Source of the DNA: a virus
Length of the DNA: 64,000 nt
Reading direction: 5' to 3' (one strand)
Virus record (IMG/VR): IMGVR_UViG_3300032334_002567
Location: 124,001-188,000 of that record
Shown: positions 7,095 to 47,153 of the stretch, in pieces
How positions within the stretch are numbered: the stretch's first letter is position 1
Layout: each line of letters opens with the position of its first letter
Notes under the pieces: model-generated
Told to the model about the DNA's origin: nothing
The model's database searches: none
Seen by the model: the letters and a program-made list of their open reading frames with translations, nothing else
Program-made: the position numbers and the translations under genes

Positions 7095-7447
7095 GGGGTC
7101 GCACTGGTATCGACGTAGTACAAGGAGATATTGGTGGCACGCCGAGGTTGATCGAAAGGCCTCGTAAAAATTCGATCACGTCTTAACTGACGAAGTTTCT
7201 TACGCAATGGCTGCCTGAGAAGGCAACCACAAACTTAGGAAGCCACGCAAGAAGCGTCCAAAAGTTTGTCGCAAAATCTTGCTGGTTTCAATTGGTCAAC
7301 TTAGTTGAAACGAGATTAATAGGTTGAAAAGATTCTTAGACTTTTGTTCGTTGTAGTCGAAAGAATCTTATGAACAACGAAACAAGCGTGTAGAGGCCAT
7401 ATTGAGTTTGCTTACGGACAGGGGTTCGACTCCCCTCGACTCCACTA
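7095..7447 (+). ncRNA. ssrA: transfer-messenger RNA (tmRNA)
   Basis: 353 bases. The 5' end GGGGTCG pairs with CGACTCC near the 3' end, including the G-U pair at position 3 that specifies alanine charging. The T-arm reads GGGTTCGACTCCC. After the 5' tRNA half, CCGAGG/CCTCG plus TGATCGAA/TTCGATCA form a clear PK1 pseudoknot. The tag frame follows: ACT GAC GAA GTT TCT TAC GCA ATG GCT GCC TGA at 7186-7218, giving TDEVSYAMAA, compared with ANDENYALAA in E. coli. The codon aligned with the usual GCA resume codon is TTA (7183). The encoded 3' end is ACTA, not ACCA, so CCA must be repaired or added. It would rescue stalled ribosomes and tag their products. Confidence 0.95.
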
Positions 7448-25815: not shown

Positions 25816-26822
25816 AGTTCAAAAGTAGTGTTCCAAAAACTCAAGAAGTTTGTTTTTCTCTTTTGAGTAAGTCTGACAAAGGAATATACATTTCTGGACG
25901 CAGAGATATATTGGCCTCATTGTCGCTAAAAAAAGTAAGACAATTACTTAAAGAATTTACTGATACTGTATTTGAAGGTAAAGTAGATGAGACTCATCCT
26001 GATATTTTAGAGATTTTTTATTCTTTGATAGAAGGAAATTTCTCAGAAGAGAAGATAATTTCTTCAATTTCTAAAGTAACTTCTTTTTCTTCTTTTAAAA
26101 CAAGGCTTATAAAAAACAAATCACTTAGAGAAGAAATAAGATCTTTAAAAAATGTTCAAAATATTGATCTATATTCTTTCTGCAAAAATCTACAAAGTAA
26201 TTGGGAGTCATCTCCTGATTCTTTTGATAAATTTATGAGGTTTGATGAGTCTTACAAAAATGATATTAAGCTGGCGAATAAGAAGGCAAAAAGATACGAA
26301 GAAATAGGGTGCATGTTTCTAGCAGATGAAGTTAAGAATTCTATTGGTCTTATAGAAGAGACAAACAAGTTGTATTACGGTTTTCACCCTATCAGTATAC
26401 TTTCAACTTCAACTATTTTAGCTAAGATAATGGGGTTTCACATATCAGAAAACTTGATTGTAGGGCATATTGCTCCGTACGGTGAGGTTCTTTATGAGCC
26501 AAGAGTTTACCCTCTTCGTGCTTTTTTTGATATAGCTTCTAAAAGAACAAAGAAGGCATTAAAGATTTTAGAAAAATTTCCACAAGCAAACGAAAAACCC
26601 ATATTCGACAATTTTTGTGTGGTTGTGCCAAGTATACAGATAATACAACAAAGTGATGAGAACTATTGTTTCTTGGACTGTGAAAATATTTTCCAAACTT
26701 ACAAATCAAAGCATGAAGCATTGAATGCTTTCGACCGTAGCTTAATTAGAAACAAACTCATTCATGCCGTATTGCTCGGTGAAAAAGACGAAAAATGTTA
26801 TTTTTTGAACTTTTTTGATTGA
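25812..26822 (+). CDS. hypothetical protein
   Basis: 336 residues, starting within the IF-3 stop codon. The first half is helical and basic. The second half has VGHIAPYGEVLYEPRVYPLR and a beta-rich end (NYCFLDCENIF; YFLNFF). No known motif is recognised. Tight coupling between IF-3 and the aldehyde dehydrogenase makes it part of the same operon. Confidence 0.72.
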   Translation: MKFKSSVPKTQEVCFSLLSKSDKGIYISGRRDILASLSLKKVRQLLKEFTDTVFEGKVDETHPDILEIFYSLIEGNFSEEKIISSISKVTSFSSFKTRLIKNKSLREEIRSLKNVQNIDLYSFCKNLQSNWESSPDSFDKFMRFDESYKNDIKLANKKAKRYEEIGCMFLADEVKNSIGLIEETNKLYYGFHPISILSTSTILAKIMGFHISENLIVGHIAPYGEVLYEPRVYPLRAFFDIASKRTKKALKILEKFPQANEKPIFDNFCVVVPSIQIIQQSDENYCFLDCENIFQTYKSKHEALNAFDRSLIRNKLIHAVLLGEKDEKCYFLNFFD

Positions 26823-26850
26823 TTGCATAAAATATTTAAATGGAGGCTTT

Positions 26851-28335
26851 GTGGAAAAGTATATTGGCAAAAACTTTGTAGATGGTAGTTGGATAGCACA
26901 AAGAGAAGACTTTTTGAGTTACAATCCATCCACAGAAGAAATTATTGGCGGATTTCCTCAGACTAATTCTGAAGAGATAACTCATTCCTTGAAAGTAGCC
27001 AGAAAAGGTTTTGATGTTTGGCGAAAGATTTCAAAAGTAAAAAGAGCAGATTACTTTTGGTCCCTTTGCAAAATTCTAGAGCAGAGAGTTGGCGACGTAG
27101 CTAAAGCAATTTCTTTGGAAACTGGTAAAAACCTTAATGAAAGTAAGGCCGAAGTTATTGAGGCTTTACATATGGCTCAGTATTGTTTTGGAAAAGGGAG
27201 AGAAACTTCTGGAGATATTGTTCCCTCTGAAATTGCAGAAAAAGATTGTTATATTGTTCGAAAACCTAAGGGTGTAGTTGCAATAATAGCACCATGGAAT
27301 TTTCCCTTTGCTATTGGTGGTTTTTGGTGTGCTGGCCCTTCTCTTATTGAAGGAAATACCGTTGTTTTTAAGCCTAGTGAATTAACACCCATGGTCGGAC
27401 AGATAACCGCAGAACTTTTTGATCAAGCGGGATTTCCCAAAGGCGTATTTAACTTAATTCATGGAGATGGTGAGGTTGGGGCCAAAATAGTCAATAGCGA
27501 TTTAGTGGATCATATATGCTTTACAGGCAGTGCAGAAGTAGGCAGGTCAATAAGAGTTGCTTGTGCAAATAGTTGGCACAAAACATGTAGTTGTGAAATG
27601 GGCAGTAAGTCTGCTGTGGTTGTTTTAAACGACGCAGATATTGACTTAGCTGTTTCCGCTTGCATAAATAGTGCTTTTAAACTAAGCGGACAGAGATGTG
27701 TTTCGGCTGGAAGACTATTGATACAAAGAGATATTCTTCCTGAATTTAAGCAAAGATTTTTAAGTGAATTACATTTATCTGGCTATGGCGATCCTTTTAA
27801 TATGGATAAGTCTAAAAATTATTCTGTTTATTTTGGTCCTCTAATTAGTAAAGATCAAAAAGAAAGGGTATCTTGTTTTAATCAAAAGGCGAGAGAAGAT
27901 AAAGATGTGACCATACTTTACGACATAATCAGCCCAGAGCCTAAGGGAAATTACTTAGCACCTTTTGTTTACCAGTGTGAGTGGGGCGATAAAGAATTTC
28001 TAAAAAATGAGGTATTTGGGCCACATCTAGCAATTATACCTTTTGATACGGTAGAACAAGCAATTGAGATTTATAATGATACCGAGTATGGTTTATCTTT
28101 GGGGTTGATAACTAATGACTTTAAAAAAGCACGACAGTTTAGAGACAACTGTGACTTTGGTTTGGGCTATTGGAACGGAGGCAGTATTGCGGCAGAGTCA
28201 CACCTTCCTTTTGGCGGCGTCAAAAAATCTGGCAATGGCAGCCCTTCTGCTGCTGGTTTATTTGATGGTGTTGTTCACAAGGTTACATGGACTGTTAACC
28301 ATGGAGCCTTATCATTTCCACAGGGCTTAAAATAA
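26851..28335 (+). CDS. NAD(P)-dependent aldehyde dehydrogenase
   Basis: 494 residues from the GTG at 26851, placed behind GGAGG. Family signatures include APWNFPFAIGG, VVFKPSELTP, HICFTGSAEVGR, the general-base Glu (CEMGSKSAVVV, about 249) and the nucleophile Cys (SGQRCVSAGR, about 283). EVFGPHLAIIPF and LPFGGVKKSGNG close the domain. It is closest in feel to the succinylglutamate-semialdehyde/AstD branch. It would oxidise an aldehyde to the acid and reduce NAD(P). Its position two genes after the decarboxylase suggests a two-step path. Confidence 0.93.
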   Translation: MEKYIGKNFVDGSWIAQREDFLSYNPSTEEIIGGFPQTNSEEITHSLKVARKGFDVWRKISKVKRADYFWSLCKILEQRVGDVAKAISLETGKNLNESKAEVIEALHMAQYCFGKGRETSGDIVPSEIAEKDCYIVRKPKGVVAIIAPWNFPFAIGGFWCAGPSLIEGNTVVFKPSELTPMVGQITAELFDQAGFPKGVFNLIHGDGEVGAKIVNSDLVDHICFTGSAEVGRSIRVACANSWHKTCSCEMGSKSAVVVLNDADIDLAVSACINSAFKLSGQRCVSAGRLLIQRDILPEFKQRFLSELHLSGYGDPFNMDKSKNYSVYFGPLISKDQKERVSCFNQKAREDKDVTILYDIISPEPKGNYLAPFVYQCEWGDKEFLKNEVFGPHLAIIPFDTVEQAIEIYNDTEYGLSLGLITNDFKKARQFRDNCDFGLGYWNGGSIAAESHLPFGGVKKSGNGSPSAAGLFDGVVHKVTWTVNHGALSFPQGLK

Positions 28336-28344
28336 GGAGTTAAT

Positions 28345-28755
28345 ATGAGCACCCCAGAAACCTTAATTCTTTCAAGACAGGAATTAATTGATTTTGCTAA
28401 AGAAATATATTCTGATTCGTGTGCAGGTTACATGGATTTAAAAGATACAACGTGTCAGAGTAAAGTCGATAAATTATTTGACCAAAAAAAGTCTTTTATA
28501 AAAAGAGATTATCAACAATCTCAATTTAATTGGGAGACCGGAGGCAACAATTCTATGTATAATACAGTCACATTTAGCACAAGCCACTATGGACTGGATA
28601 TGTCGGGCTATACCTTGGACACGTCTAATTTGAGCGTAATCGTACCAAACGATCTACAGCTAGTTCCTAGTACTGTTTTGGCTAATGAAACTAATATTAC
28701 AAATTTTTTAAACCCACACTCTATTGAGGGTGAAGATTCAAACACTAGTTTTTAA
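28345..28755 (+). CDS. hypothetical protein
   Basis: 136 residues behind AAGGAG. It is helical at first (SRQELIDFAKEIYSDSCAG), with two Cys residues (SCAG, TTCQ), then an Asn/Ser/Thr-rich C-terminal half. Unknown. It lies between the aldehyde dehydrogenase and the chaperonin genes in one operon. Confidence 0.7.
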   Translation: MSTPETLILSRQELIDFAKEIYSDSCAGYMDLKDTTCQSKVDKLFDQKKSFIKRDYQQSQFNWETGGNNSMYNTVTFSTSHYGLDMSGYTLDTSNLSVIVPNDLQLVPSTVLANETNITNFLNPHSIEGEDSNTSF

Positions 28756-28763
28756 GGAAAAAA

Positions 28764-29159
28764 ATGAATAAGATATTAAACTCAGATGGTTCACCAATGC
28801 TTACCCCTATTCCAAAGATTTCAGCTGTAAAGCCAGCGGGTTCACAGGTTCTAGTGGAGATTTTAACTGCACAAGAATTGATGGGAACAACTTTAACATT
28901 AGCAGAGAACACAGACCTAAAGGTACCTTTGCAGGGTTATATTAGAGGCGTTGGCCCATCCTTTAATCAAGATGCTTGGGGTTTTAACTTAGGTGATAGA
29001 GTGCTCATCTCTGGTGGTGGTGTTCTAGCTCCAAACTATGACGATACTCATAGAGATCGATTTTTTATGGAGCCACACGCTATAAAGAGTGTATTAATCG
29101 AAGAAAGTGACCCAGTCGAGGAAGTTGATCAATCAGGCAGCTATAATGAATCCCTATAA
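28764..29159 (+). CDS. GroES-like co-chaperonin
   Basis: 131 residues. After about 20 residues, the beta-barrel pattern of GroES appears: PAGSQVLVEILTAQELMGTT (with the mobile-loop region), LQGYIRGVGPSF, then FNLGDRVLISGGG. Co-chaperonins cap the host GroEL ring; T4 gp31 does so to fold the capsid protein. A phage copy next to DnaJ suggests folding support for virion proteins. The stop overlaps the dnaJ start by 14 bases. Confidence 0.85.
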   Translation: MNKILNSDGSPMLTPIPKISAVKPAGSQVLVEILTAQELMGTTLTLAENTDLKVPLQGYIRGVGPSFNQDAWGFNLGDRVLISGGGVLAPNYDDTHRDRFFMEPHAIKSVLIEESDPVEEVDQSGSYNESL

Positions 29160-30165
29160 TGCATTAGGAGTAGAATCTAATTCTACCCTTGATGATATAA
29201 AAAAAGCTTATAGAGACTTAGTTAAGAAGTATCATCCTGATTTAAATCCTGATGATATTGAGTCGGCTAAGAGATTTAAAGAGATTCAACATGCCTATGA
29301 AATCTTGACAGGTCAATCTAGGAGAACAAACACAGAAAGGTCAAGTCCTAAGCATAATCCTTTTGATTTTGACTTTTCTGCTGATTTGTTTGGCTCTAGT
29401 ACATTCAAGGGCAAAAACGTTATTGTAAGGTTAGAGATTGATTTATTAGAATCTATCAGTGGTTGTAAGAAATTTGTAAAAGCAAAAAAAAGAAAAAGGT
29501 GCGACGATTGCGATGGACAAGGTTGCACAGATTTTTTGATTTGCGAGCAATGCTCTGGTAATGGTTTTATACAAGCTCCTAGTGTTCCGTTCACTATAAA
29601 ACAGTCTTGTCCAAATTGTGCTGGCTTAGGCAAGATAAAATTAAAAAAATGTGACAAGTGTGCAGCAACAGGTTTTTCTTCTTATGAAGAAAAGGATATA
29701 GAAGTAGAAATACCATCAGGCATACAAAACAATGCTCAGCTTAGTTTTGCTGGTGATGGAGAAGAGTCTGTTAGGGGTGGCAGGCAAGGCGATTTAATAA
29801 TTATAGTTAAGGTTAAAGATGATCCTTTATTTAAAAGAGAAGGATCTAATTTACATATAGAGGTTCCAGTTTCATATACCCAGCTTGCACTTGGTTGTGA
29901 ACTGCTTGTACCCTCTATATTTAAAGAAAGATTAATTGTTAAAATTCCTCAAGGATGTCAGCCGCAAACAAAATTTAAGGTTAAGGGAAAAGGTGTATTA
30001 ACTAAAGCTCATATAGGTGATATGATAGTGTCTTTAAAGCTCGAAATACCAAGACAGACCGACGATGAGTATAAGTCTACTTTAAAGGAACTTTCTGCTT
30101 TTGAACAAAAAAATGTTACACCACAAAGGCAAAATTGGCTTAATAATTTGGAAACTCAACAGTAA
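29146..30165 (+). CDS. dnaJ: DnaJ (Hsp40) co-chaperone
   Basis: 339 residues from the ATG at 29146. The J-domain has HPD at 30-32 (VKKYHPDLNPDD). A shortened linker follows, then the four-repeat zinc domain (CDDCDGQGC, CEQCSGNGF, CPNCAGLGK, CDKCAATGF) and the C-terminal substrate domains (IEVEIPSGIQ; DLIIIVKVKDDP; VKIPQGCQP). It would deliver clients to host DnaK and stimulate its ATPase. It overlaps the GroES gene and shares its operon. Confidence 0.95.
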   Translation: MNPYNALGVESNSTLDDIKKAYRDLVKKYHPDLNPDDIESAKRFKEIQHAYEILTGQSRRTNTERSSPKHNPFDFDFSADLFGSSTFKGKNVIVRLEIDLLESISGCKKFVKAKKRKRCDDCDGQGCTDFLICEQCSGNGFIQAPSVPFTIKQSCPNCAGLGKIKLKKCDKCAATGFSSYEEKDIEVEIPSGIQNNAQLSFAGDGEESVRGGRQGDLIIIVKVKDDPLFKREGSNLHIEVPVSYTQLALGCELLVPSIFKERLIVKIPQGCQPQTKFKVKGKGVLTKAHIGDMIVSLKLEIPRQTDDEYKSTLKELSAFEQKNVTPQRQNWLNNLETQQ

Positions 30166-32466: not shown

Positions 32467-32832
32467 ATGCCATATATTAGCAAAGAAAACAGGCAAGAGC
32501 TGGATGAGGCAATAGAGTCTCTTCGTTGGGCAATTGTTAGACTGATTGCCCCAAAAGATCGTGACTATAAGATTTTTGACATATCTTCTCATAATCTTCT
32601 AGACTCTGCTGGTAATTTAAACTATGTGATAACAAGACTCTGCGCAGGTCTAATTTGTGAACCTAGTTATTCTAAGATAGCAATTATAACTGGTGTGCTT
32701 GAAAACGTTAAACAAGAGCTTTATAGGCGTGGTGCTTCTGAGTACGAGGATCTCAAGTCTAAGGAAAATGGCGACATACCAGAGTACGTTTATATGTCCA
32801 AACTTATAAAAAATTCCTCTAATTCAATTTAA
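32467..32832 (+). CDS. hypothetical protein
   Basis: 121 residues behind TTGGAG. Predicted helical throughout (NRQELDEAIESLRWAIVRLI). It resembles small hypothetical proteins common in large phages, but no function is known to me. It converges on the metalloprotease gene and overlaps it by 9 bases. Confidence 0.7.
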   Translation: MPYISKENRQELDEAIESLRWAIVRLIAPKDRDYKIFDISSHNLLDSAGNLNYVITRLCAGLICEPSYSKIAIITGVLENVKQELYRRGASEYEDLKSKENGDIPEYVYMSKLIKNSSNSI

Positions 32833-33267
32833 TTTCTTTATAAAGTTCATCCATGCTTCATGATCGTGGATTCTAGGACAATGGTCTCCAGAGTAGTAGC
32901 AAGCATACGCCATGCAAAAAAGTTCTTCAGGTGGTTGATCTTGTTTTTTTTCTTCTGTGGAATCTAGCACTTTTTTCCATGATTTTCTCATGTTTTCATC
33001 GATAAGATGCTCCCACACTAAGTGTGCTATTTCATGTAATGTTGTGAATTTTCTAGAATAGTTCCAAGGTGCGGCTACTACTATTTTGTCTTTATGTATA
33101 TAACCGATATGTTGTTCATCACCTTTTAAAGTATTGTTTGGCGTATAAGTAAACTTGTACTTATGCAACATCCTTTTGTGATTTTTTGGAAGATTTGCTA
33201 TAAGAACTTTTACGTTCCTCTCTTCCTCAGATTCGGTCTCTTCTAAAAATTTTTTAAAACTTTCCAT
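32824..33267 (-). CDS. zinc metalloprotease-like protein with capsid-targeting-like N-terminus
   Basis: 147 residues. The start MESFKKFLEETES fits the shared signature. A zincin motif HEIAH lies at 78-82 (KFTTLHEIAHLVWEHL). The third ligand may be in CMAYACYYSGDH or the following His-rich end (CPRIHDHEAWM). It resembles ImmA/IrrE or minigluzincin-type peptidases. If packaged, it could be injected and cut a host protein; that is inference. Confidence 0.78.
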   Translation of the reverse strand: MESFKKFLEETESEEERNVKVLIANLPKNHKRMLHKYKFTYTPNNTLKGDEQHIGYIHKDKIVVAAPWNYSRKFTTLHEIAHLVWEHLIDENMRKSWKKVLDSTEEKKQDQPPEELFCMAYACYYSGDHCPRIHDHEAWMNFIKKLN

Positions 33268-33314
33268 TCTTTATTTATATTTGCTACAATGAAAATTTAA
33301 AATAATTTAGCTAT

Positions 33315-33320
33315 TATAAT
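33315..33320 (+). promoter_or_regulatory. -10 box upstream of a candidate non-coding RNA
   Basis: TATAAT at 33315-33320. A weak TTTAAA lies 15 bases upstream at 33294-33299. It would start a transcript at about 33327, in a region without a gene that ends in a strong terminator. Confidence 0.55.
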
Positions 33321-33326
33321 TTGTTC

Positions 33327-33660
33327 ACGGCCCTAAAGGGAGGCTTCGAAGGCCTTAATTTCGATAGCTGATTGCTTCGGCTATAAAACCTTTGCAACGA
33401 ATTAATCCTACGACAAAGGAATGGAAATCTATGGTTCCACCAGTTCATAGACGCTGTTGTGCTGCGCAAGCATAAAAAAGTGACGAAATCTCTTTAAAAA
33501 AACGGAAAGCCCAAAAGAGCAGACAATCTTTTAACCGTGATTCAAAAAAGGATAATTTCGTAAGTTTCATGATTTATCTTGAAACTTAGTTTTTAAAAAA
33601 GCCAAGTTTGCGAATCTACTTCTTTTTAAAGACCCAATATCTAATATTGGGTCTTTTTTT
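33327..33660 (+). ncRNA. candidate structured non-coding RNA of unknown class
   Basis: About 330 bases with no convincing protein frame on either strand, bounded by a promoter-like TATAAT and a terminator (AGACCCAATAT/ATATTGGGTCT plus T-run). Many helices can be drawn: AAGGCC with GGCCC, CCTTTG/CAAAGG, CTATG/CATAG, TGCT-GCGC-AGCA, a long-range ACGAAAT/ATTTCGT, and AAGTTTCA/TTGAAACTT. It lacks the conserved P4 sequence of RNase P RNA and has no tmRNA ends, SRP or 6S hallmarks that I can see. It may be a new phage RNA. Confidence 0.6.
33629..33660 (+). terminator. Rho-independent terminator of the candidate RNA
   Basis: Stem AGACCCAATAT/ATATTGGGTCT with a 3-base loop and seven following T residues. 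Confidence 0.9.
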
Positions 33661-33710
33661 GTTCCTTTTCTGTGTAAATATAGATAGGCTCTCAATAAAG
33701 GACAAAATGT

Positions 33711-34586
33711 ATGAATTTCAAAGACTGGATTTTACTAGAAGACAGCAAGTCTTTAGCTAAAGCTTACGTAGATTTATTGAAAGATGTCCCGCAGGATCCA
33801 ACCCATCATCCAGAGGGCAACGCTTTAGTACACATACAATTGGTAAGAAAAGCAGTGCCCAAAGCAATTGCTACGTTAAAAGTTCTAAAAAATAGAGAGC
33901 CATTCACACATATTCTTTCCGATATAAGTTTTGATGTCACACCTTTAGAGAAACAAATTCTTTATTTGGCTGCTTGGCTTCATGACATAGGTAAATCAAC
34001 TGCTACTACAGTTGGAGGCATTAATTTTAATTATCTCCGTCAAATGGATGTTATGTACCAAATGGATAGTGGGAAAATAAAATCAATTGGGCATGATGAG
34101 CCAAGGCACTATATGCCACAAATTAATAGGTTGAAGGACTTAGCGCCTGAATCAACCAAAGACCTATACATTAAGAATAAGGATCTTATAAATTTTTTAA
34201 TTGACCACCATATGGATTTGATGAATTCTGATGGTTTTTCTAATGCATTCGTTAAAGAACATTTTGTTGATGGCAAGGTAATTAATAGTCAAAAAATTAA
34301 ATTGTTATTGATCCTAATGTGGTCTGACAAGATGGGAAGAACTGAGGAGACAATACCGAAATCAATTAGAAACAATGAAGAAAGATTGGTTGCGTCATCA
34401 AATAGGTCTGTTGAACAAAGAAAAAAAGCCGAACTCGAACAGCAGAAGGCCAAGGCAAAAGATTTCAGCTCACCAGAACAAATGATCGATATGTTAACAA
34501 GAAGAGGCTTAACGCCACAGCAAATACAAATTGCTGTTCAGAATAAATTTCCAGGTTATCAACAAATTACTAAAGGAACAGAATGA
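33711..34586 (+). CDS. HD-domain hydrolase with capsid-targeting-like N-terminus
   Basis: 291 residues behind AAAGGA. It starts MNFKDWILLEDSK, matching the shared tag. HD-domain motifs are present: HPEGNALVHIQLV (first His), LAAWLHDIGKS (HD pair at about 92-93), FLIDHHMDLM and LMWSDKMGR. HD enzymes are metal-dependent phosphohydrolases or phosphodiesterases acting on nucleotides or RNA ends. The C-terminus is Gln/Lys-rich, with a short UBA-like helix set. It is ATGA-coupled to the PhoH gene. Confidence 0.85.
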   Translation: MNFKDWILLEDSKSLAKAYVDLLKDVPQDPTHHPEGNALVHIQLVRKAVPKAIATLKVLKNREPFTHILSDISFDVTPLEKQILYLAAWLHDIGKSTATTVGGINFNYLRQMDVMYQMDSGKIKSIGHDEPRHYMPQINRLKDLAPESTKDLYIKNKDLINFLIDHHMDLMNSDGFSNAFVKEHFVDGKVINSQKIKLLLILMWSDKMGRTEETIPKSIRNNEERLVASSNRSVEQRKKAELEQQKAKAKDFSSPEQMIDMLTRRGLTPQQIQIAVQNKFPGYQQITKGTE

Positions 34587-35287
34587 GAAAAAAGCAAAGA
34601 CACAATAGATCTAAACAAAGAACTGAGGTTAAGCAAGAGCAGCCTCTAAAAAAGCAGCCACAGACTTTCCATTTTGAATTTTTTAACCAAGCACAAAAAC
34701 TTGCTTGGAGTATGTTTGATCAATACGATGTACTTTTTTTATTGGGCCCAGCTGGGGTTGGCAAGACTCAACTGGCCTGTGCATTCAGTATAAGTGAGGT
34801 TCTTGCTAAGAAAAAAGAAAGAATAATTTTGACTAGGCCGATAGTAGAAGCAGGGGAATCTTTGGGTTATCTTCCTGGTTCTTTTGAGGAAAAAGTAAGT
34901 CCTTACATGATGCCTATGTACGACTGTATAGACAGGTGTTTGGGAAAAGATGGTCCACAAAGAGAAATTATAAATAAATCAATTGAAGTTGCACCACTGG
35001 CTTACCTCAGAGGAAGAACTTTTCACAATTCTATTTGTATATTTGATGAGGCGCAAAATGCAACTTTATCACAAATTAAACTCTTTATAACCAGATTTGG
35101 CAAGAACAGTAAGGTAATTATTACTGGGGATCCCAACCAAAGTGATATTCCTGAGAGGCAACAAGGATTAATGCATGTGGTCAAAAAGCTAGAGACTTTA
35201 AATGGAGTTGGAGTCGTTTACTTTAAATCTAGTTCAATAGTTAGACATCCTTTAATAGCTTCTATTTTGGAAAAGCTAGAAGGGTAA
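34583..35287 (+). CDS. phoH: PhoH-like ATPase
   Basis: 234 residues. Walker A GPAGVGKT is at 55-62 and Walker B is ICIFDEAQNAT. Family blocks include ILTRPIVEAGESLGYLPG, AYLRGRTFHNS and KVIITGDPNQSDIP. The N-terminal 30 residues are a basic extension. PhoH proteins are RNA-linked ATPases or helicases widespread in phages. ATGA overlap couples it to the HD hydrolase, suggesting a shared RNA-processing role. Confidence 0.93.
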   Translation: MRKKQRHNRSKQRTEVKQEQPLKKQPQTFHFEFFNQAQKLAWSMFDQYDVLFLLGPAGVGKTQLACAFSISEVLAKKKERIILTRPIVEAGESLGYLPGSFEEKVSPYMMPMYDCIDRCLGKDGPQREIINKSIEVAPLAYLRGRTFHNSICIFDEAQNATLSQIKLFITRFGKNSKVIITGDPNQSDIPERQQGLMHVVKKLETLNGVGVVYFKSSSIVRHPLIASILEKLEG

Positions 35288-37117: not shown

Positions 37118-37402
37118 ATGGAAACCCAGCTTGATAAAAACATGAATATTATTTACATTTTATTTGCTTCAAATTTAGTTTTAATTATAATTAATCTAGT
37201 TCTTACTTTTTACATGGGCGCATTTTTAGTTAGATTCCGAAGGGATTTAACTGAATTAATCTCTAGTTTATTAGAAATCAACATAGAACCTCCAGATCAG
37301 AAACAACCAGTTGAAGAATACCCTAAAACTTGGGATCAGAAGTACGAAGAAGAAATACAAGAAGCGTCTCGTCGGTTGGCACAGCAACAAGGCGATTTTT
37401 AA
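37118..37402 (+). CDS. small membrane-anchored protein
   Basis: 94 residues. An N-terminal membrane segment (MNIIYILFASNLVLIIINLV, then LTFYMGAFLV) is followed by a charged cytoplasmic helix (RRDLTELISSLLEI) and an acidic tail. It overlaps the amidoligase gene by one base. Unknown. Confidence 0.66.
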   Translation: METQLDKNMNIIYILFASNLVLIIINLVLTFYMGAFLVRFRRDLTELISSLLEINIEPPDQKQPVEEYPKTWDQKYEEEIQEASRRLAQQQGDF

Positions 37403-38346
37403 TGAATGAAAAAGTTAATGTAGCTTACAAAAAATTTGATATTGAAAGAAATTTTGGCGTAGAGTTAGAAATGGGTAGTTTTATTCCCAAGAATAAAATA
37501 AAAAATTTGATTAAGGTAGCTTCAAAAGTTCCCGTTGAGGTTACAAAATATCAATTAAGCTCAAACAATAATTTTTGGCATGTCAAAGATGATGCTACTT
37601 GCGGCATTCTAGGTAGGAGAGGTCCCAAGGGAGTAGAGGTTGCATCTTATGTTGCCCAAGGTAGCAAGGACATCAATCACATAGCAGGTATAGCTAGTTT
37701 TTTATACGATGCTGGATGTAGGTCAAATCAAAATTGTGGCACACACATTCATGCTGATGTTAAAGATCTAGATATAAAAGCCATTGGCACAATATTATCT
37801 TATTGGCTTAAGATTGAGACTTGGATAGAAAATTCACTACCCAGCTCCAGAATAAATAATAAATACTGTAGAAGATTGTCAGGCACTATAGGCCTTGATC
37901 GTGATAAAAAAAGAAAACCAGAAGATGTTTTTTCTTTTCTTGCACCATCCAATTTGAATGTTTATGAGAACGAAGAGAGAAGGGTCTCTTTGAATTTAGT
38001 AAATTATATGCGTTCTATAGTCGGCATTGCAAAAAGAAAAACTATAGAACTTAGATATCCTGAAGGCACACTAGATTCAAGGGACATAAAATCATGGATC
38101 TATTTATTTTTAACTTTTATAGAAAACTGTAAAGATAAAGATATTCCTGACAATTTATTGGATTGTGAGTCAATTGATGAGGTTCTTTGTTTTTTAGGCT
38201 TAGGCCATACCCCAGAAACTTTTTTTATTTTTTCAAGTGATTTACATGATACAAGAATTTGGTTCTTACAGAGATTAATCAGATATGGAGGTAAAAAACA
38301 CAAGGAACAAGCAGAAAAAAAGCTTGAATTTTTAACAAAAAATTAG
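37402..38346 (+). CDS. putative amidoligase (glutamine-synthetase-like fold)
   Basis: 314 residues from the ATG at 37402. The phage amidoligase-2 pattern is visible: NFGVELEMGSF at the start, FWHVKDDATCG, GVEVASYVAQG, the His-rich NQNCGTHIHADVKDL and the later KRKTIELRYPEGTLDSRD. These enzymes are thought to use ATP to join amino groups to carboxylates, for example in cell wall or tail peptides. No gamma-glutamyl cyclotransferase partner is next to it, although such pairs are common. Substrate unknown. Confidence 0.82.
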   Translation: MNEKVNVAYKKFDIERNFGVELEMGSFIPKNKIKNLIKVASKVPVEVTKYQLSSNNNFWHVKDDATCGILGRRGPKGVEVASYVAQGSKDINHIAGIASFLYDAGCRSNQNCGTHIHADVKDLDIKAIGTILSYWLKIETWIENSLPSSRINNKYCRRLSGTIGLDRDKKRKPEDVFSFLAPSNLNVYENEERRVSLNLVNYMRSIVGIAKRKTIELRYPEGTLDSRDIKSWIYLFLTFIENCKDKDIPDNLLDCESIDEVLCFLGLGHTPETFFIFSSDLHDTRIWFLQRLIRYGGKKHKEQAEKKLEFLTKN

Positions 38347-46790: not shown

Positions 46791-46930
46791 TGTAGGAAGT
46801 ATTAAGAAGGTGCCGAAAGGCACTGGCAACCGAGCAAAAGCCACGGTGCCACCAGCTATCTTTGCTGGGATACGCACAGGAGTGTTTCCTGTGAAAAAGC
46901 GGATTATCCGCCTTCTTGATCTCCCTTTAA
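46791..46930 (+). ncRNA. candidate structured leader or small RNA (multi-branch fold)
   Basis: Within about 110 bases five perfect or near-perfect hairpins can be drawn inside an outer GAAGG/CCTTC helix (46806-46810 / 46911-46915). They are GTGCC-GAAA-GGCAC, GGCA-A-CCG/CGGTGCC (loop AGCAAAAGCCA), CCAGC/GCTGG, CACAGGA/TCCTGTG and GCGGA/TCCGC. It sits between a strong promoter and the start of a small gene, as a riboswitch or a stable small RNA would. I compared it in memory with common riboswitch cores and found no match. Confidence 0.65.
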
Positions 46931-46946: not shown

Positions 46947-47153
46947 ATGTTTTTTAGTGCTGCTGTTTTACAAGGACTCAACGATCTTAGGAATAAGAAC
47001 CCTAAGATTGTAGAGGTAACCAAAGAAGAGCTAATTGCTTCTATGAAAAGGCAAGGCTCTGCTGATTGGGAAATAAATATGACTTTGTCTTTCTTGAAAG
47101 GAGGTGCTGCATTAGGCGGTTCCAATGGAGAAAGAATTGTCTTAAAAGAGTAA
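46947..47153 (+). CDS. small hypothetical protein downstream of structured leader
   Basis: 68 residues. The ribosome binding site is weak (GAGAGAG). It is helical (VEVTKEELIASMKRQGSADW), with a Gly-rich part (FLKGGAALGGSNGER). Its expression may be controlled by the folded RNA directly upstream. Confidence 0.65.
   Translation: MFFSAAVLQGLNDLRNKNPKIVEVTKEELIASMKRQGSADWEINMTLSFLKGGAALGGSNGERIVLKE

Follow-up and report, generated by a model that had tools for sequence, protein, structure and literature searches.

A non-coding gap in a giant phage, at window positions 33325-33660 (+), encodes an RNA of about 336 nt with a conserved fold, conserved loop motifs and no coding content. Here the window is the whole stretch of 64,000 nucleotides that was analysed, taken from a virus record of 381,443 bases. 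Homologues were found in five other metagenomic phage lineages (L025, L028, L068, L077/L078 and L064); because these preserve the shape of the fold and not its exact sequence, and because no catalogued family accounts for it, we conclude that this is a real and previously undescribed RNA. The earlier note on this DNA had suggested a free-standing phage RNA of unclassified kind, and the homologues, the compensatory changes in helices, the -10 element and the terminator all speak for that reading. The explanation that we favour, and hold to be probable, is a free-standing, phage-encoded structured RNA from a hitherto undescribed family, acting in trans, driven by a host promoter and binding a partner through its conserved 5′ core.

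Boundaries and coding potential of the RNA gene

The RNA gene consists of two domains followed by a terminator. A putative -10 promoter element, TATAAT, was located at 33315-33320 (+), where it matches the consensus at six of six positions and ends 4 nt 5′ of the first paired base; the earlier note had seen it at the start of the RNA, and it lies just outside the start given there. Only 0.3% of nearby windows contain a match of equal quality, -10-like hexamers occur at the equivalent place in the homologues, and no clear -35 element was detected upstream. The strong terminator noticed at the 3′ end corresponds to a predicted intrinsic terminator at 33628-33660 (+), a 13-bp stem followed by U7. 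Most carriers have a clear equivalent; those of L068 and L064 are weaker. Both signals are assigned by their agreement with consensus and should be read as candidates.

The open reading frames within the gene are small and mechanical (at most 51 aa) and no frame is common to the homologues, in agreement with the earlier reading that neither strand holds a protein gene. Protein-level similarity among the homologues is scattered across all six frames and is interrupted by stops. Similarity distributed in this manner provides no coding signal, and the hypothesis of a hidden protein was rejected on this basis.

Homologues at the same locus in six lineages

Two genes served as synteny anchors. Upstream and divergent lies the gene for an HExxH metallopeptidase-like protein without a Pfam match (32824-33267, −), and downstream, beyond the gene for an HD-type protein (33711-34586, +; Pfam HD at E=0.005 only), lies phoH (34583-35287, +; E=8e-67); these are the neighbours that had been described as a protease and an HD hydrolase with PhoH next. 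Homologues were sought by combining synteny (location between the peptidase gene and phoH) with a covariance model, an approach by sequence and gene order that the earlier note had proposed and that yielded the five further phage lineages. A search with PhoH gathered relatives, among them L025 and L028, in which the peptidase-phoH gap contains the same short blocks, and a peptidase alignment provided 33 loci, among them L068 and L077/L078 with these blocks. All homologues reside in viral contigs, measure 216-479 nt and, together with the window, represent six independent lineages.

The covariance model R1 describes a 66-nt block composed of hairpin L, ACGGAAAGCC and hairpin 3. It matches the window at 33476-33541 with 60.9 bits, as it must by construction, and it also found L064, which was outside its training set, with 30.4 bits (E=3e-6) and the same synteny; in this lineage a protein gene is inserted before the RNA, which is still located between the peptidase gene and phoH. 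When R1 was run over 40 whole relative records, matches at E<1e-6 were obtained only in the named carriers; in its own genome the RNA gene is single-copy. Model R2, built on the 5′ block, detected no further homologue and recovered neither L064 nor L077. A BLASTN search of the RNA against 50,697 phage records returned short chance matches only (including one to GBSV1), and when viral and genome contigs were scanned for sequence patterns, inspection left the already known loci as the sole genuine matches.

Architecture of the RNA

The homologues have in common a 5′ domain closed by one helix, within which small hairpins alternate with the near-invariant motifs GACGAAA, ACGGAAAGCC and the hairpin loop GCAGCAA. 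The closing helix, P1, is formed by UCACGG (33325-33330, +) and CCGUGA (33535-33540, +), both of which are recovered by RNAalifold. All six pairs are kept in five lineages, with variants such as UCAUGG/CUGUGA in L068 and ACAAAC/GUUUGU in L077, and P1 has no confident placement in L064. The 5′ strand of P1 is followed in order by hairpin 1, hairpin 2, an insert, hairpin L, the linker ACGGAAAGCC and hairpin 3. Hairpin 1 (33331-33340, +) pairs CCC/GGG in the window, GCC/GGC in L068 and GUC/GAC in L077. Hairpin 2 (33346-33364, +), supported by model R2, is a UCGA-loop hairpin with GCCUUAA-UCGA and has a loop of the GCCUUAA type; its stem is CCGAU/AUCGG or UCGAU/AUCGA in homologues. The variable insert (33365-33476, +) is little alignable and its length differs widely among homologues. 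Hairpin L (33477-33495, +), part of R1, pairs AAAG/CUUU in the window and GGU/ACC in relatives around the conserved loop GACGAAA. The near-invariant linker ACGGAAAGCCC (33502-33512, +; alignments A3 and A6) leads into hairpin 3 (33513-33532, +), which reads AAAAGA-GCAGACAA-UCUUUU and carries the loop GCAGCAA in most relatives. A kissing interaction between GAUUGC of hairpin 2 and GCAAUC of hairpin 3 was considered, these strands being complementary in L025, L028 and L068 and nearly so in L064; since the pair never covaries and is absent from both the window and L077, kissing is not claimed.

The 3′ domain (33539-33616, +) is variable among relatives. Its closing stem, proposed from the sequence, would pair GAUUC (33539-33543) with GAAUC (33612-33616), and corresponding stems may form between GAAUCU and AGAUUUC in L028 and between UUUGAAU and AUUCAAA in L068; the proposed strands pair at 4/5 to 7/9 positions. 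Within the domain, AACCCAAGCUGG is common to L025 and L028.

Covariation and fold stability

The evidence for structure was strongest in comparisons between lineages. When hairpin 3 was aligned across seven sequences, 95.2% of cells were paired versus 77.2% in shuffles (0/500 as high), two-sided changes were observed in five of the six pairs (reached by 4/500 shuffles), and the covariation score was 0.825 versus 0.402 for shuffles (0/500 reaching it). Controls in which the partner strand was slid were 38-64% paired. In this alignment the window sits one base out of register, which biases the result against the structure. The five helices of the 5′ domain, analysed in four sequences, were 89.2% paired, versus 35-55% for slid versions, and the strands of hairpin L paired 3/3 with their own partners in six lineages, compared with 10/54 when strands were swapped between them. 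P1 and hairpin L show coordinated change across lineages. RNAalifold, run unguided, returned P1, hairpin 1, hairpin L and hairpin 3, and gave a different hairpin 2. A lack of covariation among homologues, which the earlier note had named as a refuting outcome, was not observed: the conserved helices carry compensatory changes, with statistics that are limited by there being only six independent lineages.

In contrast to the alignments, the predicted stability of the fold carries little weight. The window has a z-score of −4.15 with the terminator and −1.8 without it, and the homologues score −0.6, 0.0, −0.2 and −1.9. The apparent stability is mostly that of the terminator and, given the drop in z upon its removal, stability alone is no proof of an RNA; the real evidence is comparative, namely the homologues and their covariation. 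The earlier note had also pointed out a long-range pair, ACGAAAT/ATTTCGT. It exists as letters (33483-33489 with 33556-33562), but a match of equal length arises in 34% of shuffles and the homologues do not conserve the pair; ACGAAA instead belongs to the loop of hairpin L.

A possible leader of the phoH operon, and a locus of variable content

The main rival to a free-standing RNA is that the RNA forms a long leader, a riboswitch or attenuator, controlling the phoH operon in cis; the 5′ domain would sense a signal and the terminator would decide read-through. Like such leaders, the RNA is structured and has an intrinsic terminator at its end, with an operon beyond. Each of the six lineages has it upstream of and co-directional with the phoH operon, and the terminator lies between the RNA and the next gene, 50-100 nt ahead of the start codon. 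Unlike them, it matches no aptamer family. Alternative (antiterminator) pairing with the terminator arms did not exceed chance in five of six sequences, and in the sixth, L068, there is a 9-nt match that is reached by 1% of shuffles. The gene immediately downstream encodes an HD-type protein, a putative C39-like peptidase or PhoH, and this variation counts against a leader bound to one gene. Moreover, phoH is retained in relatives without the RNA, and TATAAATA-like sites, of the kind found in T4 late promoters, precede many genes by eye, including the peptidase gene (window 33268-33290) and phoH in relatives; they show a modest enrichment over the window (11 versus 4 of 72 ORFs). We regard the leader as unlikely, and yet as deserving of serious attention, since the RNA always has the same place and orientation with respect to phoH.

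Comparison of the peptidase-phoH gap among relatives showed that its contents differ. The gap holds the RNA alone in L025, L068 and L077, the RNA with an ORF that we read as a C39-like peptidase in L028, a protein gene followed by the RNA in L064, and the RNA with the HD gene in the window, the only carrier in which HD follows the RNA. It holds HD alone in L050 and protein genes only in L053, L055, L060, L061, L065, L080 and LR756511, and is next to empty in L026, L029, L031, L054 and L074-L076. LR756511 (595 kb) is the nearest named phage record and shows the same peptidase-phoH neighbourhood with protein genes between and no RNA. Most relatives that keep the peptidase-phoH pair are without the RNA. 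This makes the locus a hotspot of insertion and the RNA an accessory gene, present in only some relatives.

In L032/L072, L079, L093 and L095, other long structured-looking stretches lie upstream of phoH, each with a TATAAT and, in L079, L093 and L095, with an evident terminator. R1 does not match the RNAs of L072, L079, L093 or L095 and the start points were chosen by eye, so these loci are not counted as members. It is conceivable, although we incline against it, that they do belong to the family, which would then be a fast-evolving RNA at a fixed locus, absent from databases, recurrent in a large clade of giant phages and acting in trans on the host. As a separate observation at this locus, phoH of L068 (880-2646, −) carries an in-frame insertion that interrupts the Walker A region and gives a 588-aa ORF; the insertion ends in ...VTHN, with S at the junction, and reads like an intein.

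Comparison with known RNA classes

Rfam covariance models, a search likewise proposed in the earlier note, were applied to 33250-33720 and gave no family at the gathering threshold, in line with its by-eye judgement that the RNA resembles none of RNase P RNA, tmRNA, SRP RNA and 6S RNA. At E<=10 this stretch had chance matches below threshold, most of them to the terminator, and nothing else, and the other carriers gave none at E<=1. That the RNA belongs to a known class (RNase P RNA, tmRNA, group I intron, GOLLD or ROOL) and has diverged so far as to lie below Rfam's reach is in our judgement improbable. This reading is suggested by GGAAAGUCCGG in L077, which to the eye resembles conserved region I in RNase P RNA, and by a stretch GACAAUC that is presumably reminiscent of group I introns. 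However, the 5′ end of the RNA pairs with the middle and not with the 3′ end, unlike RNase P RNA and tmRNA, so that the two ends do not together build a P4 core; the RNA sits between whole genes, with no interrupted gene such as an intron would need; and neither Rfam nor ARAGORN finds a tmRNA at the RNA gene, the phage having a separate one at 7095-7447 (Rfam RF00023, 133.7 bits; missed by ARAGORN). On the Rfam results, RNase P RNA, tmRNA and group I intron were each rejected, as was membership of GOLLD and ROOL.

ROOL and GOLLD are phage RNAs of unknown function that are often found beside tRNA islands, and GOLLD, whose members often exceed 800 nt, combines a conserved 3′ region with one variable domain (PMC12286853). 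ROOL resembles the RNA described here in being free-standing, structured, phage-encoded and without an assigned function, and GOLLD in being phage-encoded with one conserved and one variable domain; as with both, the RNA lies in viral DNA (a virus record of 381 kb). It differs from them in several respects: at 336 nt it is smaller, its conserved part is 5′ and not 3′ as in GOLLD, and no tRNA island adjoins it, the window's tRNAs (8317 and 9795) and the tmRNA (7095) being more than 23 kb away. The ROOL, GOLLD and OLE models gave no match at E<=10 (33250-33720) or at E<=1 (other carriers). A homo-oligomeric cage is a further mark of ROOL and GOLLD. The kinship to large ornate phage RNAs suggested by the earlier note holds as a loose analogy and not as membership. 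Phages also encode other RNAs outside the mRNA and tRNA classes, such as the small stable RNAs C and D of T4 and the pRNA of phi29; compared through Rfam only, these differ from the present RNA in location and architecture.

It might also be supposed that the conserved entity is a DNA element (an origin, packaging or recombination site) whose inverted repeats mimic RNA helices. Such repeats have functions in DNA no less than in RNA, and insertions have a hotspot at this locus. We find this quite improbable. Helices are maintained by G-U pairs on the + strand (for example in hairpin 3 of L064, and as U-G and G-U in P1 of L068), which would be A-C mismatches on the other strand and favour RNA over DNA; in addition, the -10 element and terminator share one orientation, and the element is absent from most relatives. 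The weak z-scores without the terminator might point to a remnant, or to structure arising by chance near a long but ordinary terminator region. This is very improbable and already disfavoured, as R1 detected a homologue outside its training set in the syntenic position and the two-sided changes in hairpin 3 exceed both controls.

Proposed activity of the free-standing RNA

Under the favoured explanation, host RNA polymerase with its housekeeping sigma factor would transcribe the RNA from the TATAAT, and the intrinsic terminator would release a discrete transcript of about 336 nt. Comparison of the homologues shows that the 5′ part is a multibranched domain, closed by P1 and displaying hairpins 1, 2, L and 3 together with near-invariant unpaired motifs; the 3′ domain and the variable insert are likely to be peripheral. 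The RNA may then act in trans, forming an RNA-protein particle or a folded scaffold, with the invariant motifs GACGAAA, ACGGAAAGCC, GCAGCAA and GCCUUAA as the candidate surface that a partner from host or phage would contact. It would be an accessory gene at the hotspot between the peptidase gene and phoH.

Within the literature covered, no earlier description of this RNA family was found, and we class the RNA as a new family within a known kind, the large structured phage RNAs. To our knowledge such RNAs are few and none has an established function. The RNA belongs to a family that is now defined, its conserved core has named motifs and its locus is fixed, and related giant phages with and without it make up a natural series; these provide clear targets for pull-down and deletion, given a culturable carrier. 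Synteny coupled with a small covariance model can detect phage RNAs that are missed by Rfam and BLAST.

Other features of the window

Three further features were recorded elsewhere in the window. A SAM-I/IV riboswitch match at 46794-46909 scores 52.2 bits, above threshold, and precedes a small ORF with its start at 46947. Genes for an aldehyde dehydrogenase, a GroES-like protein (recognized by eye, with no Pfam match) and DnaJ stand in a row at 26815-30165. An amidoligase-family gene is located at 37402-38346 (PF12224, E=7e-22).
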